Shown here piece after piece: positions 6,758-19,198 of a DNA stretch of 31,095 bases. Position 1 is the stretch's first letter. Each line of letters starts with the position of its first letter. Source of the DNA: a virus; IMG/VR virus record IMGVR_UViG_3300030333_005140, positions 1-31,095 of that record; one strand, 5' to 3'. The translations under genes were made by a program, and so were the position numbers. The notes under the pieces were generated by a model that saw only the letters and a list, made by a program, of their open reading frames with translations, ran no database searches and was not told the DNA's origin.

Positions 6758-7079
6758 TCGGATTTTCCTCGAAACCACACTGTTGTAGTACGGTTTGCAG
6801 GTTGCCTGTCATATCCACTGCTGTCTTATCACTCATGCCGAGATAGTTCTTGGATAAGAATATCTGCATTGCGATCGCATTGTTCTCGATCGCTGATACC
6901 CACATTGCGCGTCTGAGCTTGAACTTCATCTCTTCGCGTCCAGCTTCATACTTCTCTTTGAAGTTATTGCGTATATAACTCTCACCAACCTCAAAGTATT
7001 TTCCGATCTCTGCGTACTTACACCCAAAGGATGCAAGCATCTTGACCTTATCTGGGTCTACTTTACTCTTCTTCTTCAT
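6675..7079 (-). CDS. terS: Terminase small subunit-like DNA-binding protein (134 aa)
   Basis: An N-terminal helix-turn-helix (KMLASFGCKYAEIGKYFEVG, about residues 12-35) is followed by helices with AIAMQIFLSKNYLGMSDK. That string is a recurrent signature of small terminase subunits in marine siphophages (NxxxxIFLxKNxLGxxDK). The protein recognises the packaging site and hands DNA to TerL. The ATG at 7079 is preferred over the TTG one codon earlier. It overlaps both neighbours, upstream by 17 bases and terL by at least 83. Confidence 0.8.
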   Translation of the reverse strand: MKKKSKVDPDKVKMLASFGCKYAEIGKYFEVGESYIRNNFKEKYEAGREEMKFKLRRAMWVSAIENNAIAMQIFLSKNYLGMSDKTAVDMTGNLQTVLQQCGFEENPIDKANSEQAKALEDLGIRPDSTAVGSS

Positions 7080-7401
7080 CAATATTAGCCTTTTCGATGA
7101 CAGCGTGTATCTTCTTCAGTGTTCTACGCCAGTATTCCTTTACGCTGGACTCGGTGATCTCCATCTCTACTGCGATGTCAACAAAGGTGTGGCCAAGCGT
7201 GCGCTGCTTGAATACACGCAGTTCCTGCGGAGACATGAGATCATAGAATGCATGTGCGCTTATTTGCAGGTGGCGCAGGTCTGGGTCTATCAGTCCGCTG
7301 CGGAATACTAGCATCTGTACGTGGTAGCGGTCTGCGCGGTCTATTGCATGTAGCCATTTATCTGTATTATCATCAGTTAGATTAGACCAAACCTCTTCCA
7401 T
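7063..7401 (-). CDS. HTH protein with sigma-region-4-like domain (112 aa)
   Basis: The C-terminal half (LMSPQELRVFKQRTLGHTFV, then DIAVEMEITESSVKEYWRR) reads as the four-helix arrangement of sigma-70 region 4 or RinA/ArpU-type phage late regulators, ending in an acidic DEEEE tail. The N-terminal half is helical and unrecognised. It is the first gene of the late operon, about 115 bases from the strong promoter at 7517-7544 and 20 bases from an AGTGTTGACAA site. A late transcription activator or a packaging accessory factor are both possible. Confidence 0.65.
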   Translation of the reverse strand: MEEVWSNLTDDNTDKWLHAIDRADRYHVQMLVFRSGLIDPDLRHLQISAHAFYDLMSPQELRVFKQRTLGHTFVDIAVEMEITESSVKEYWRRTLKKIHAVIEKANIDEEEE

Positions 7402-7420: not shown

Positions 7421-7431
7421 AGTGTTGACAA
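7421..7431 (+). promoter_or_regulatory. AGTGTTGACAA operator-like motif, copy 1
   Basis: This is a perfect copy of the 11-mer also found at 9656-9666 and, as an inverted pair, at 18047-18057 and 18071-18081. It lies between the late promoter and the start of the first late gene. It contains TTGACA on the + strand, but no acceptable -10 box follows, so I read it as a protein binding site rather than a promoter. Confidence 0.55.
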
Positions 7432-7502
7432 AAACGAAAGTAAAAATTCTAAGACGCGGTAAGTAGGCGAAATCGCGATCCGCCTTGGTATAACCGACTA
7501 AT

Positions 7503-7523
7503 TATACATAATGTATATTATAC
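7503..7523. promoter_or_regulatory. Overlapping palindromes at the late promoter
   Basis: TATACAT-A-ATGTATA (7503-7517) is a perfect 15-bp odd-centred palindrome. GTATA-T-TATAC (7513-7523) overlaps it and includes the leftward -10 box. The first shares its core CATAATG with the palindrome at 7618-7632. Position over the -10 and start region suggests repressor or activator binding. Confidence 0.5.
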
Positions 7524-7544
7524 GCAAGATTGAAAACGTGTCAC
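7517..7544 (-). promoter_or_regulatory. Leftward late promoter
   Basis: Read leftward, GTGACA (7544-7539, five of six matches to the -35 consensus) and a perfect TATAAT (7522-7517) are separated by 16 bases. A start near 7510 would transcribe the whole late operon (HTH, terS, terL, portal and onward). A second perfect TATAAT lies at 7506-7501 without a good -35. Confidence 0.6.
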
Positions 7545-7632: not shown

Positions 7633-7690
7633 GGTGCGTTTGCTTTCTTTTTTAGTTTGGTTGGATACAAATATTTTATTTTGATAAGTA

Positions 7691-7719
7691 TTGACACGTA
7701 TATATATATCAACTAAATT
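7691..7719 (+). promoter_or_regulatory. Rightward promoter for the GP88-like module
   Basis: A perfect TTGACA (7691-7696) is followed after 17 bases by TAAATT (7714-7719, four of six matches), with an alternating TA tract between. It lies about 55 bases upstream of the rightward start codon at 7774 and is the best candidate for the only rightward transcription unit. Confidence 0.5.
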
Positions 7720-7773: not shown

Positions 7774-8481
7774 ATGAAAGAAACCAAGTTATTAACATAT
7801 CCGCACGGATCAACCAAGACTAATAAATCAATGGCCTATGGATACGCGAATTTTATTATGTATCTTGCTCCGCATAAATTAAGCGGTCATAACGTTTGTC
7901 CAGGTGCAACCATAGGCTGTATTGAATCATGTTTAAACGAGAGCGGGCGCGGCAATTGGGTCGAAAAGAACGGTAAAATTAACCCAATACATCAAGCGCG
8001 TTTAAACCGTACATTACTTTATTTTAATGACCGCGCACGGTTTTTTGAACAACTAACAAAAGAGATCAAGAGCGGTATAACGTGGGCAAAAAAACGCGAT
8101 CTGATACCTGTTTTTAGGTTAAACGGTACATCTGATTTACGATGGGAAAACGACTGGCAGAATTTCAATATCATTAAATATTTTAGTGATATTCAATTTT
8201 ATGACTATACTAAATTATGGAACCGTAGAAATTTACCCGCGAATTATCATTTAACATTTAGCCGCGCGGAGTCAAACCAGGAGCAAACATTAAGCGCGAT
8301 TGTTAATGGTTTAAACATTAGCGCAGTGTTTCGTAGTGAGTTACCTAAACAATATCTTGGTTTAAATGTAATTAACGGTGATAAACATGATTTAAGATTT
8401 TTGGACCCGCTGCGATCATGTGTGGGCCTAATAGCTAAGGGCAAAGCAAAACATGATACAAGCGGGTTTGTTATTAACTAA
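7774..8481 (+). CDS. GP88-like cysteine-motif phage protein (235 aa)
   Basis: The motif NVCPGATIGCIESCLNESGR (Cys42, Cys49, Cys53), then HQARLNRT and FRLNGTSDLRW (about residues 114-124), matches a phage family related to gene product 88 domains (CP-x5-C-x3-CL, RT, RLNGTSDxxWE). Its biochemical role is, to my knowledge, not established; the spaced cysteines suggest a metal or Fe-S site. It heads the only rightward module, with an AGAGAGAG ribosome site. It uses CGC/CGT arginine and AGC serine codons far more than the following gene, hinting at separate acquisition. Confidence 0.75.
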   Translation: MKETKLLTYPHGSTKTNKSMAYGYANFIMYLAPHKLSGHNVCPGATIGCIESCLNESGRGNWVEKNGKINPIHQARLNRTLLYFNDRARFFEQLTKEIKSGITWAKKRDLIPVFRLNGTSDLRWENDWQNFNIIKYFSDIQFYDYTKLWNRRNLPANYHLTFSRAESNQEQTLSAIVNGLNISAVFRSELPKQYLGLNVINGDKHDLRFLDPLRSCVGLIAKGKAKHDTSGFVIN

Positions 8482-9003: not shown

Positions 9004-9029
9004 AAACCCGCTTAAACGCGGGTTTTTTT
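9004..9029 (+). terminator. Intrinsic terminator of the rightward module
   Basis: AAACCCGC (9004-9011) and GCGGGTTT (9018-9025) form a perfect 8-bp stem with a six-base loop, followed by four further T bases. It closes the rightward transcript just before the 19-bp repeats and so would shield them from transcription. Confidence 0.9.
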
Positions 9030-9039
9030 GTGTCCTGCT

Positions 9040-9115
9040 GCGCACATAAGCGTAACCTGCGCACATAAGCGTAACCTGCGCACATAAGCGTAACCTGCGC
9101 ACATAAGCGTAACCT
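9040..9115 (+). repeat. Four perfect 19-bp tandem repeats (iteron-like)
   Basis: The unit GCGCACATAAGCGTAACCT occurs four times without a mismatch at 9040, 9059, 9078 and 9097, and a fifth partial copy (GCATAA) follows. Each junction contains TGCGCA. The repeats are directly followed by an AT-rich tract and lie between convergent transcription ends, the classic setting of an origin with initiator-binding iterons. No spacer structure of a CRISPR is present. Confidence 0.9.
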
Positions 9116-9566: not shown

Positions 9567-9581
9567 TAGAGGTGCTGAGAC

Positions 9582-9701
9582 AAAGAATTTGAAGAATTTG
9601 AAGAATATCTCTCTCTCTCTCCTCTATAAATATTTTTTCTCAAATTCTCTTTTTTAGTGTTGACAAGAATTTGAAATTCTTCATATTCTTCATATTCTTC
9701 G
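9582..9701. repeat. Mirrored 9-nt repeats flanking a CT tract
   Basis: On the left are two AAGAATTTG units and a variant (9582-9609); on the right are three ATTCTTCAT-like units (about 9676-9701). They are near reverse complements of each other. Between them are a CT-repeat (9609-9625), an A/T run and an AGTGTTGACAA site. The + strand right arm also contains a perfect odd-centred palindrome AAGAATTT-G-AAATTCTT (9665-9681). Confidence 0.6.
9656..9666 (+). promoter_or_regulatory. AGTGTTGACAA operator-like motif, copy 2
   Basis: This perfect copy of the 11-mer is joined to a 17-bp palindrome (9665-9681). It lies just past the end of the primase-helicase gene, in the non-coding side of the origin region. 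TTGACA with TATTCT 18 bases later could be a weak rightward promoter antisense to the primase gene. Confidence 0.5.
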
Positions 9702-9716
9702 TTTTCTTTGCACGCG

Positions 9717-11567
9717 CTAATCATCAATAATGTCAAGTTCTGTCTCCATTTTCCTATAAATTCCATGCGATATCTTACGCATAAGACCCTGATTTATCAT
9801 ACGATTCATCCAATTCGATACCGCAGCATTACTACTAACACCCACCACGGAATCCAACGCAGCAACAAATGCGTCACGACTAAAGTTATGCCCATCTGTC
9901 AGTATTGCCTGAAGCACCTTTTCTTCTAGTGACTCCTTTGGGTCCGTATACCAGAACATCTCATTCTTTGGCAGTGGCTTTAAATATTCAAAGTACAGAT
10001 GGCCACCATTCACATTGTGCAGTTTGATACCGACTGGCACGCCATGCAGGTCATTCTGACTGCGCACCTTCGTGATCTTCATTACCTTTAGACCAGGCAT
10101 ACGGCTACTACTTGCAAGCTGTACGATACCATCCAAATGATTCGTATATGCGCTACCACCTAGCATATGACTTACGTCCAATGGACTCGCTTCACCCATC
10201 TTTTTATGATGCGACACCATCACGATCGCAACTTTATGTTTGTTCTTCAGATTCACCATGGTACGCAATAGGTCCATCACATCATCGTTCTTGCTCACAT
10301 TCTTATCGGTACTCGTATACAGATTATCCACCACCAACACTTCGCATGGATCAAAGGTAAGATTATTATCGATCGCTTCCCACTTATCCGCGAACACATC
10401 CCGCTGCCCATCGGACAATATTCTAAAATTCTTTTCAAACCTGCCCGCTTCTACTGGATAATCGTTTAACACACGCCCTGCGGTTCGCTTTAAAAGCTGC
10501 GTGAAACTCTCGTCCTTTAACTCGAACTGCACATGCATCACCTTCCTGGCCTTTGGTACGCGAAAATTCAGGAACGGCACTCCCATACTCAAACAGGTCG
10601 CAAGTTGCAGACTGATCACCGATTTACCCACATTCGTACCACCTGCAATGCCAAGTATATCTTTTTTAAAGAACAGATCATCAATGATCGGTTCAGGCAT
10701 ATGCACAAAAGTACTAGTGAACTGCGCAGGACTAAAACTACGCATCCCGCCAAGGTCTTCTGGCTTATCACCAAACCGCACACAACATGCAAGCAGTTCT
10801 TCCATGGTATTTCCATCATTGAACCAGTCTGTTATATCGTAGCTGGAAGGTTTTTGGTTCCACTGCATGATATACAACTCCACCTGCGCACCAAATAGCC
10901 TTTTGGCGAGTTTTTTCGCACCTTCCTCGCCTTTTTCATCGTTATCGTACACTATGTATACCTTATTATATCTATCGTCCAAGGTTATTTTCGCAGGCAG
11001 CGCACCCGCACCTGACGTAAATGTCAGAGCGGATGCGCCATTGCAGTATGCGGTGACCACGTCCTTTTCACCTTCACAGATCACAAGGCTGGAGAGAGAT
11101 AGATGCGGAGTCTCGAACGACTTGCAACCTGCGTCACCGAACTGCGGACCTTTATGAAATTTTACATGATCGTCATTGATCTGGAACACCAACTGCGCAT
11201 TTTTCTTTTCATCACGCCTAACGCCCACAGGCATGTCCAGGCACTTCTCATTCCACGGCAACTCTAACTCCTCGACCGCTTTTTTCCAATGCGCAACAAA
11301 CGTTGCCCGCGCAGCAGCATAGCCACTTTTCTTTACCTCTTTTGACTCCACTTTGACCTTGGTATTGGTCAGTTTATATTCTACCCGCGGGGTTTTTACT
11401 GTCTTTTCTGAAAAATCCCAATGTGCATTGCATTTATGACAATAGGCATACTCACCATTGATCTGCACCGTGCCTTGCTTGCGTGATGTACCATCGTCAC
11501 ACTTAGGACACCAAGCACGCTTACCATTATGAGTTATCCGTGAGAAGACATCTGCTGCACTGCTCAA
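9717..11567 (-). CDS. Bifunctional primase-helicase (616 aa)
   Basis: The domain order is that of T7 gp4-like proteins. An N-terminal zinc ribbon has Cys20, Cys23, Cys43 and Cys46. A TOPRIM primase domain has ICEGEKD (about 163-169) and YDND (207-210). A RecA-type helicase/ATPase domain has Walker A GGTNVGKS (309-316) and Walker B EVLVVDN (about 409-415). A winged-helix-like C-terminus follows (about 560-610). It primes and probably unwinds DNA at the fork, with polymerase supplied by the host since none is encoded. The start is a TTG overlapping the previous stop (TTGA), with AGGAAG upstream. It is the last clear gene of the early operon. Confidence 0.9.
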   Translation of the reverse strand: MSSAADVFSRITHNGKRAWCPKCDDGTSRKQGTVQINGEYAYCHKCNAHWDFSEKTVKTPRVEYKLTNTKVKVESKEVKKSGYAAARATFVAHWKKAVEELELPWNEKCLDMPVGVRRDEKKNAQLVFQINDDHVKFHKGPQFGDAGCKSFETPHLSLSSLVICEGEKDVVTAYCNGASALTFTSGAGALPAKITLDDRYNKVYIVYDNDEKGEEGAKKLAKRLFGAQVELYIMQWNQKPSSYDITDWFNDGNTMEELLACCVRFGDKPEDLGGMRSFSPAQFTSTFVHMPEPIIDDLFFKKDILGIAGGTNVGKSVISLQLATCLSMGVPFLNFRVPKARKVMHVQFELKDESFTQLLKRTAGRVLNDYPVEAGRFEKNFRILSDGQRDVFADKWEAIDNNLTFDPCEVLVVDNLYTSTDKNVSKNDDVMDLLRTMVNLKNKHKVAIVMVSHHKKMGEASPLDVSHMLGGSAYTNHLDGIVQLASSSRMPGLKVMKITKVRSQNDLHGVPVGIKLHNVNGGHLYFEYLKPLPKNEMFWYTDPKESLEEKVLQAILTDGHNFSRDAFVAALDSVVGVSSNAAVSNWMNRMINQGLMRKISHGIYRKMETELDIIDD

Positions 11568-17856: not shown

Positions 17857-18045
17857 TTAAAAAGGCCATTCAATAAACTCCATCTTGATTCCCAAGACTC
17901 GTGCAATATTGACCTTATGTTCGTAACGAAACTTACGTTTGCCGCGCATCATTAAAGAAAGCATACTTTTGTCTAAAGCGATCTGCCTAGCTAATTGGTT
18001 TTGTGAAAAACCACACTCTCTCATATGTTGATGTAAAGGCTTCAT
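17857..18045 (-). CDS. Cro/CI-like repressor, XRE family (62 aa)
   Basis: A helix-turn-helix spans about residues 13-33 (FSQNQLARQIALDKSMLSLM), followed by MRGKRKFRYEHKVNIARVLG, the usual XRE layout. At 62 residues it is Cro-sized, with no dimerisation/cleavage domain. The frame extends to a TTG at 18057, but ATG at 18045 is the better start. Its 5' region carries the inverted pair of AGTGTTGACAA sites, so autoregulation is likely. It is the first gene of the early operon. Confidence 0.8.
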   Translation of the reverse strand: MKPLHQHMRECGFSQNQLARQIALDKSMLSLMMRGKRKFRYEHKVNIARVLGIKMEFIEWPF

Positions 18046-18046
18046 A

Positions 18047-18081
18047 AGTGTTGACAAAGTTTAATGCGCCTTGTCAACACT
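18047..18081. promoter_or_regulatory. Paired AGTGTTGACAA operators at the repressor gene
   Basis: AGTGTTGACAA (18047-18057) and its exact reverse complement TTGTCAACACT (18071-18081) are separated by 13 bases. The left arm ends two bases from the repressor ATG. An AT-rich stretch at 18082-18100 (TATAAA, TAATAC on the leftward strand) could supply the -10 box. The pair sits where a repressor would block its own transcription. Confidence 0.65.
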
Positions 18082-18100
18082 AAGCAAGTATTATTTTATA

Positions 18101-19198
18101 TTAGAACTCTTCTTCGATGCGCATTGCTACATTGTATACGTCAGGTGCAACCTGTTGCATATCCAAACTATTTTGGGCAAATCTAGCAAAAATATGTTCA
18201 CTCTCCGCATTACCTGCGGAGCTGTCCTTATCAATAGAAAAAATAAAAGGTAGGTGTTGTCCGTTGGTTAAGTTCCAGATATCTTCCACAACCGCATCAT
18301 CATCAAAGTCTTTTATATGGTACTCGTCTGGCATTACATCGGTTGATGCTAAATAACTAAAGTTCATATCATAAACTAATCGGCCACCATATAAATGTCT
18401 ATTCGATGATGAAGTAGTAAATGGAGATTTAGATGTAGACGATCCTGTTCTGCCGTGACTTGTCATATTAGAAAATCTTTGACCACCTATAGATTGCTGA
18501 AGTGTTACCTGGTCAAACATAATAGACCTTTTTACATTTAAATCTGGACTATGGGGCATATCATAATACTCACCTACCATTATTTGACCTACTGTAAAAT
18601 CTGTGCTACCCCATGTTCCATCTGTTGTGCCTGTAGATGTTTGATCAATAGTTCCTTCAAACTGAATCCCCCAGTATCTTAGGTCTTGCTCATCAAAAAT
18701 TATAATTGTGCTTCCGTCTGCATCTGGTTTTATGGCCACGCTTTTATTATCACTAGCAGAAACTATCGAGTCAGCATTCACTATCTGCGTGACATTCTGA
18801 CTGCCCCAACTAACATCCGATGTATTGGCATTACCAGCATCAACCGCAGTAACACGACTAGATGCACTTCCAGCACTTATTCTTATTTTGCCATTTGAAC
18901 TATTCAAATTATGATTTAAGATAGCAACAAATGATTGCTTCGGGTTCGCACTTTGCATATCTAGAGTTACTAATACTTGGCTATCTGTATCCCCAGATGT
19001 GTCAAATGAAACAAGATTCAAAGGTCTGCCATCAAATAACTCTGCCTCTGAACCTGTTTGAATTCCTCGAAATGCAGATGCTCCCGATCCGCCTGTTGCA
19101 GTTACATCAAATTCTCCATTCTGTGCCACACCTCTACTTAATAGATATTGTATATAATCCACATAAAATCTTGGTGTGCGTATATTCATGTTTGCCAT
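18101..19198 (-). CDS. Tail tip or fibre-associated structural protein (365 aa)
   Basis: This protein is Ser/Thr/Gly/Asp-rich and beta-structured, beginning MANMNIRTPRFYVDYIQYLL. It contains a jelly-roll-like stretch (YWGIQFEGTIDQTSTG, about residue 174) of the kind seen in receptor-binding or baseplate proteins. It is the last gene of the late operon and its start touches the end of the 725-aa tail protein. Its place after tape measure and hub protein suggests a distal tail or host-contact role. The family is not firmly recognised. Confidence 0.65.
   Translation of the reverse strand: MANMNIRTPRFYVDYIQYLLSRGVAQNGEFDVTATGGSGASAFRGIQTGSEAELFDGRPLNLVSFDTSGDTDSQVLVTLDMQSANPKQSFVAILNHNLNSSNGKIRISAGSASSRVTAVDAGNANTSDVSWGSQNVTQIVNADSIVSASDNKSVAIKPDADGSTIIIFDEQDLRYWGIQFEGTIDQTSTGTTDGTWGSTDFTVGQIMVGEYYDMPHSPDLNVKRSIMFDQVTLQQSIGGQRFSNMTSHGRTGSSTSKSPFTTSSSNRHLYGGRLVYDMNFSYLASTDVMPDEYHIKDFDDDAVVEDIWNLTNGQHLPFIFSIDKDSSAGNAESEHIFARFAQNSLDMQQVAPDVYNVAMRIEEEF

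Follow-up and report, generated by a model that had tools for sequence, protein, structure and literature searches.

The systems closest to the one described here are the scattered operators of phage L5 and TipsytheTRex, the Cro protein of lambdoid phages, and the controller (C) proteins of restriction-modification systems, such as C.BclI and C.AhdI. In L5/TipsytheTRex, a repressor monomer binds each of the asymmetric 13-bp stoperators that are scattered over the genome; L5 has more than 20 of these sites, located in promoters and short intergenic spaces, and its repressor is a larger protein of two domains (PMC9283540). Here we analyze the whole of a 31,095-base IMG/VR virus record (the window), in which a 9-mer, GTGTTGACA, marks, by sequence comparison, the predicted promoters of the early genes, the late genes and gp88, both in an uncultured marine phage and in about sixty of its relatives. 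A phage operator network is a known kind of arrangement, and what we consider worth testing in this one is its evolutionary twist.

An earlier note on this DNA had reported an 11-mer, AGTGTTGACAA, at four intergenic places. Exact search of the full record returned the same four copies, at 7421-7431 (+), 9656-9666 (+), 18047-18057 (+) and 18071-18081 (-), all outside plausible genes, and found no fifth exact copy elsewhere in the 31,095 bases. The copies at 18047 and 18071 do form, as had been claimed, a perfect inverted pair, with 11-bp arms 13 bp apart, that abuts the ATG of a small helix-turn-helix (HTH) gene. The comparison with shuffled sequence that the note had proposed came out both ways: this particular 11-mer is expected only 0.00-0.05 times in Markov simulations of order 1-3, but some non-low-complexity 11-mer reaches at least four copies in 12-18% of simulated windows once the choice of word is allowed for (a look-elsewhere test), so that the in-window statistics are weak and no more than suggestive. 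With two mismatches allowed, the window holds 14 copies against 12.8 expected, an ordinary number. A chance origin of the repeats is ruled out by their conservation in relatives, not by the in-window counts. The 9-mer GTGTTGACA forms the motif's core and is probably an asymmetric operator; on this comparative evidence the repeats are a real, conserved set of putative regulatory sites.

The inverted pair lies before a 62-aa Cro-type HTH gene (17857-18045, minus strand; Pfam HTH_3, 2.4e-5), the first gene of the leftward early/replication operon, and stops one base short of its ATG at 18045. Arm 1 of the putative operator (AGTGTTGACAA, 18071-18081, minus strand) falls in the spacer of a predicted promoter, between a -35 box TTGCTT at 18082-18087 and a -10 box TAAACT at 18058-18063 (both minus strand); arm 2 (18047-18057, plus strand; TTGTCAACACT when read along the HTH gene) comes after the -10 box and 1 bp from the ATG. 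Both arms are exact repeats in the window. A search with the HTH protein yielded 59 usable loci with a full-length gene, and all 59 carry GTGTTGACA and, after a gap of 12, 14 or 15 bases, TGTCAACAC, with 0-2 bases left before the ATG. The loop between the arms varies freely in sequence among these loci, and arm 2 has two single-base variants, one in L043/L044 and one in L100/L101. A scan for the pair in DNA only, with no protein used, over 2.9 million viral contigs found 62 stretches, 58 of them the HTH locus (56 scored by script, plus contigs L145 and L146, which end inside the gene) and four unrelated.

The promoter itself is recognizable across the relatives. A sigma-70-type -10 box lies between the arms, which flank it in 59/59 loci; its form is TAnnnT (TAATAT, TATACT or TAATTT, for example), and the position of the -35 box is conserved. 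In most unique upstream sequences a TTGCNN box upstream of the pair is followed 17-18 bp on by TAnnnT, and L021 has a consensus TTGACA at exactly the -35 place. Transcription would then begin inside arm 2, some 5-7 nt ahead of the ATG, with one arm in the promoter spacer and the other over the predicted start site. Such a placement in the spacer and at the start site is usual for an autorepressor, and putative operators that overlap the gene's own promoter are a Cro-type feature. Since the spacing of the arms varies and the sites found elsewhere (below) are single, each 9-mer is probably a separate unit that binds its protein on its own; variable spacing and single sites may likewise count against a dimer that binds a palindromic site of fixed spacing. 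The pair could also be read as an RNA hairpin that blocks translation of the HTH gene from late read-through transcripts, given its perfect 11-bp stem and variable loop directly before the ATG and 55 bp after the stop of a late gene. However, single copies elsewhere could not form a hairpin, and the arm change in L100/L101 breaks a terminal pair with no compensation, and we regard this reading as extremely improbable.

Two further sites lie around the start of the late operon. The copy at 7421-7431 (+) is a single putative operator that lies 20 bp ahead of the first late gene's ATG; it occupies the same place in every lineage examined, which bears out the earlier placement of one site at the start of the late operon. 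A degenerate putative operator, GTATTGACA, at 7688-7696 (+), was missing from the earlier list; most relatives have GTGTTGACA there. It precedes a GP88-family gene (7774-8481, plus strand; Pfam GP88, 4e-41), and its TTGACA at 7691-7696 doubles as the -35 box of a predicted rightward gp88 promoter whose -10 box is at 7714-7719. The first late gene (7063-7401, minus strand) encodes a 112-aa HTH protein resembling NarL and sigma region 4, here called lateHTH (Pfam GerE, 1.8e-5); 9/9 members match phrog_1190, 'RNA polymerase sigma factor', and the PDB profile matches are NarL and GerE. Upstream of the late operon, the putative operator is included in a near-invariant block, CTTACCGCGTCTTAGAATTTTTACTTTCGTTTTTGTCAACAC (7422-7464, minus strand). 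Near-invariant blocks CTTACCGCGTCTTANAATTTTT and ACCAAGGC were noted at 7422-7464 and about 7490-7530, together with a palindrome, ATACATTATGTAT; these may possibly be the late promoter or a cos/pac site. Elsewhere in the window, homology to a major head protein (phrog_267) at 1907-1305 seems to carry on from an ORF in a different frame (2404-2114) that resembles an N-terminal part, a split that a frameshift or an assembly error could possibly explain.

Across 17 records of the window's clade (497 kb), 55/55 exact copies of GTGTTGACA fall at four orthologous places: the two arms at the HTH gene, a site that precedes the first late gene by about 20-29 bp, and one 225-267 bp further upstream beside gp88. 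The reversed pattern, used as a control, gave one match in the same records. Outside the clade, the L037/L039 lineage has two exact 9-mer copies inside small ORFs. Additional lineages, brought in by a search with the lateHTH protein, show that the late and gp88 copies shift type jointly, between GACA, GCCA and CGCA types: 49 loci pair TGTC with TGTC, five pair TGGC with TGGC, and five pair TGCG with either TGCG or AGCG, with three loci partly discordant. Because the two sites change together, one trans-acting regulator per genome would appear to read both.

TTGACA is the sigma-70 -35 consensus, and the motifs might therefore be nothing but host -35 boxes. The gp88 site, whose TTGACA stands 16-17 bp before a -10-like box, would suit this reading. 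The HTH promoter, however, has its own TTGCNN -35 box and its TTGACA is too near the -10; the late-operon copy is in the wrong orientation; the flanking GTG is conserved equally; and other lineages use GTGTTGCCA and GTGTTCGCA. We consider it very unlikely that the sites are -35 boxes rather than operators.

The earlier note had also proposed that a site beside the origin belongs to the network. The copy in question (AGTGTTGACAA, 9656-9666, plus strand) sits within the loop of an inverted-repeat element; this element follows the gene for a Toprim primase/AAA helicase (9717-11567, minus strand), with which the early operon ends. It has one mismatch in the near-identical nearest relative, L001, and L023/L024 show CGTCAACAC instead; in L036 and in G024 (L216), a relative of L036, two differently placed copies follow the primase gene, a region where the L037 group carries copies of the TTCGCA type. 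Most relatives have none, and 9656 was dropped from the core set because of this sporadic presence, for which reason the link to the origin is recurrent but not conserved, and weak. The idea that one repressor joins early, late and origin control thus holds in part: the early-late link stands and gp88 is tied in as well, but the link to the origin is weak, as 9656 is not conserved. Just after the primase gene (9580-9710), and at the corresponding position in almost every relative, is an inverted array of 9-bp units (xxGAATATG) in which the letters xx are lineage-specific yet match across all units and both arms, as if homogenized; it is a candidate for an origin or a structured RNA. A terminator-like hairpin at 9004-9025 is followed, within 9004-9113, by four 19-bp tandem repeats, CTGCGCACATAAGCGTAAC.

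The history of the HTH gene can be read from its temperate relatives. In the window, a 365-aa gene of the late (tail) region, tail365 (18101-19198, minus strand), ends 55 bp before the HTH ATG, and the gap between the two genes is 7-56 bp throughout the window's clade. In the temperate L039, L037, L211, L214, L392 and others, the space between tail365 and the HTH gene holds a gene for a tyrosine integrase (L039 matches Pfam Phage_integrase at 1.3e-8) as well as a divergent gene for a CI-like HTH protein; in L215/L216 the integrase gene has two small ORFs, both unclassified, next to it; and G031 has an integrase and a CI-like gene before its contig ends at the expected position of the HTH gene. 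Neither the window nor 23 loci of its clade gave an integrase or CI match. The CI-less members form one clade in the tree, with support of 100/99, and the temperate L030 falls on the same side as this clade under midpoint rooting only, a placement that fits one loss of the cassette. As the window's clade is without the integrase-CI cassette that its sister lineages carry, the HTH gene is probably a Cro ortholog, left without its CI partner after a single loss of that cassette. It is still the first gene of the early operon, as a cro gene would be, with no divergent CI partner. In L393 (6768-8183) an integrase lies directly beside the Cro ortholog and our searches detected no CI gene, so that L393 may represent a stage between temperate and CI-less phages. 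In temperate relatives, tandem 11-bp repeats with TGTTGACA occur between a tRNA-like attP sequence and the end of the integrase gene (L039 2231-2249, L347 1522-1540, L037 6016-6035) and recur in the late/gp88 intergenic region; they are possibly integrase arm sites.

The 62-aa HTH protein is the best candidate for the reader of GTGTTGACA. Its AlphaFold2 model (pLDDT 94) has an all-helical core, and its nearest folds are C.BclI, HipB, SinR, C.AhdI and P22 c2; this resemblance to autoregulatory repressors of the Cro and C-protein type favors it as the reader. It is a small, single HTH_3/XRE domain (HTH_3 above cutoff) with no C-terminal dimerization domain, as expected of a Cro-type protein. A further point in its favor is that TGTTG, the core of the GTGTTGACA site, is enriched in the Cro-leader regions of temperate relatives (18 occurrences versus 6.6 expected, a level reached in 0/300 shuffles), in a set of ten sequences some of which are close kin. 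Other observations count against it. L021 keeps all four sites despite a change in the HTH recognition helix from DKSMLSL to SPSMLSR, and the motif is absent at the temperate cro gene but present at the late and gp88 sites: there is no exact GTGTTGACA or GTGTTCGCA in the CI-Cro region of temperate relatives, whose late and gp88 sites keep the motif. We looked for the Cro of the GCCA-type lineage, which would be the most informative for co-variation, and did not find it. G031, which has the late site and no HTH match, was considered as a disproof and set aside, its record ending between CI and the position of cro.

The reader could instead be a different protein of the phage or a factor from the host, such as one involved in replication or in the nucleoid, and the HTH gene would be just one of its targets. 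In line with this, there are lineages that have the late and gp88 sites but none at the cro promoter, and several have copies near the presumed origin; the inverted pair, on the other hand, occurs only in the clade without the integrase-CI cassette and always abuts the HTH gene. We hold such a reader to be doubtful, though somewhat less so than lateHTH. The temperate side adds a complication of its own, in that its late ATG has an extra element like the Cro-leader motif (AAGCAACAA in L026/L033, as in L210/L211/L213, and TGTTGCATATGCAA in L040, as in the Cro leaders of L217/L219, the three late loci being tied to those cro lineages by similarity only), and the two signals may therefore have different readers.

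lateHTH, the main rival that we considered for the HTH protein, would control its own operon, gp88 and, in the window's clade, the early promoter; early genes would then be switched off as late genes start. The site stands 20-42 bp before the lateHTH gene start in every lineage, temperate or not, and the homology to NarL and sigma region 4 is apt, as a sigma-4-like domain, acting as a monomer, can recognize sequences similar to TTGACA; monomer reading would fit an asymmetric site. The type of site, however, changes while the reading helix stays identical: helix VTESSCKEYWRR is found with both TGTC-type (three loci) and TGGC-type (one locus) sites. For this reason we disfavor lateHTH; that it controls these operons is unlikely, and that it times the early shut-off is equally so.

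We favor a model in which the HTH protein, as an orphan Cro, represses its own early operon as well as the late and gp88 promoters, an account that we judge somewhat more probable than its negation. Bound to the arms between the -35 and -10 boxes and over the start site, the protein would shut off its own operon by negative feedback, and from the single copies at the late leader and the gp88 -35 box it would keep those promoters down. Late and gp88 transcription would be released once the repressor falls or replicated genomes titrate it, timing and titration being a proposal only. As to its evolution, an operator confined to late and gp88 sites in temperate ancestors may have been taken over by the cro promoter in the form of an inverted pair, making orphan Cro the master regulator of early, late and gp88 genes; this step we put forward tentatively, leaning slightly against it. 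If true, it would be a natural case of a temperate switch turned lytic timer.

The phage group is itself little represented in annotated collections. Primase and HTH profiles found no prophage in 84,980 species genomes, and we therefore name no host. INPHARED (50,697 annotated phage records) contains no close relative: the primase, HTH and lateHTH proteins have at most one remote or partial match each, and TerL has only remote matches, at about 30% identity. For this uncultured group of phages, which has no close annotated relatives, the sites define a regulon that can be tested. They also provide a comparative series, from temperate lineages with integrase, CI and Cro to a clade that looks lytic and has only Cro, along which one can trace, base by base, what becomes of a repressor and its operators once lysogeny is lost.

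Set against known systems, the locus resembles each in part. C.BclI and C.AhdI have the closest predicted fold and are likewise small autoregulatory HTH proteins; here, however, no restriction-modification pair lies beside the gene, whose neighbors code for the tail-region protein, a 72-aa protein and an SSB-like protein (a C5 methylase gene lies at a distance of about 4 kb, with no partner restriction enzyme recognized), and the sites reach phage late genes. With L5/TipsytheTRex it shares a set of asymmetric sites scattered over a phage genome (PMC9283540). The L5 type has more than 20 asymmetric sites oriented with transcription, whereas the window has four exact and one degenerate, one of them after the primase gene; these 4-5 sites are nearly all at promoters or leaders, and the protein has only 62 aa. 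The likeness to lambdoid Cro (HTH_3/XRE) lies in a small one-domain HTH protein that heads the early operon, with putative operators across its own promoter, and in temperate sister lineages that have a divergent CI-like gene and an integrase beside the HTH gene. Unlike lambdoid Cro, the protein described here has no CI partner, and its putative operators are asymmetric 9-mers at variable spacing, with single copies that extend its possible reach to the late operon and gp88.
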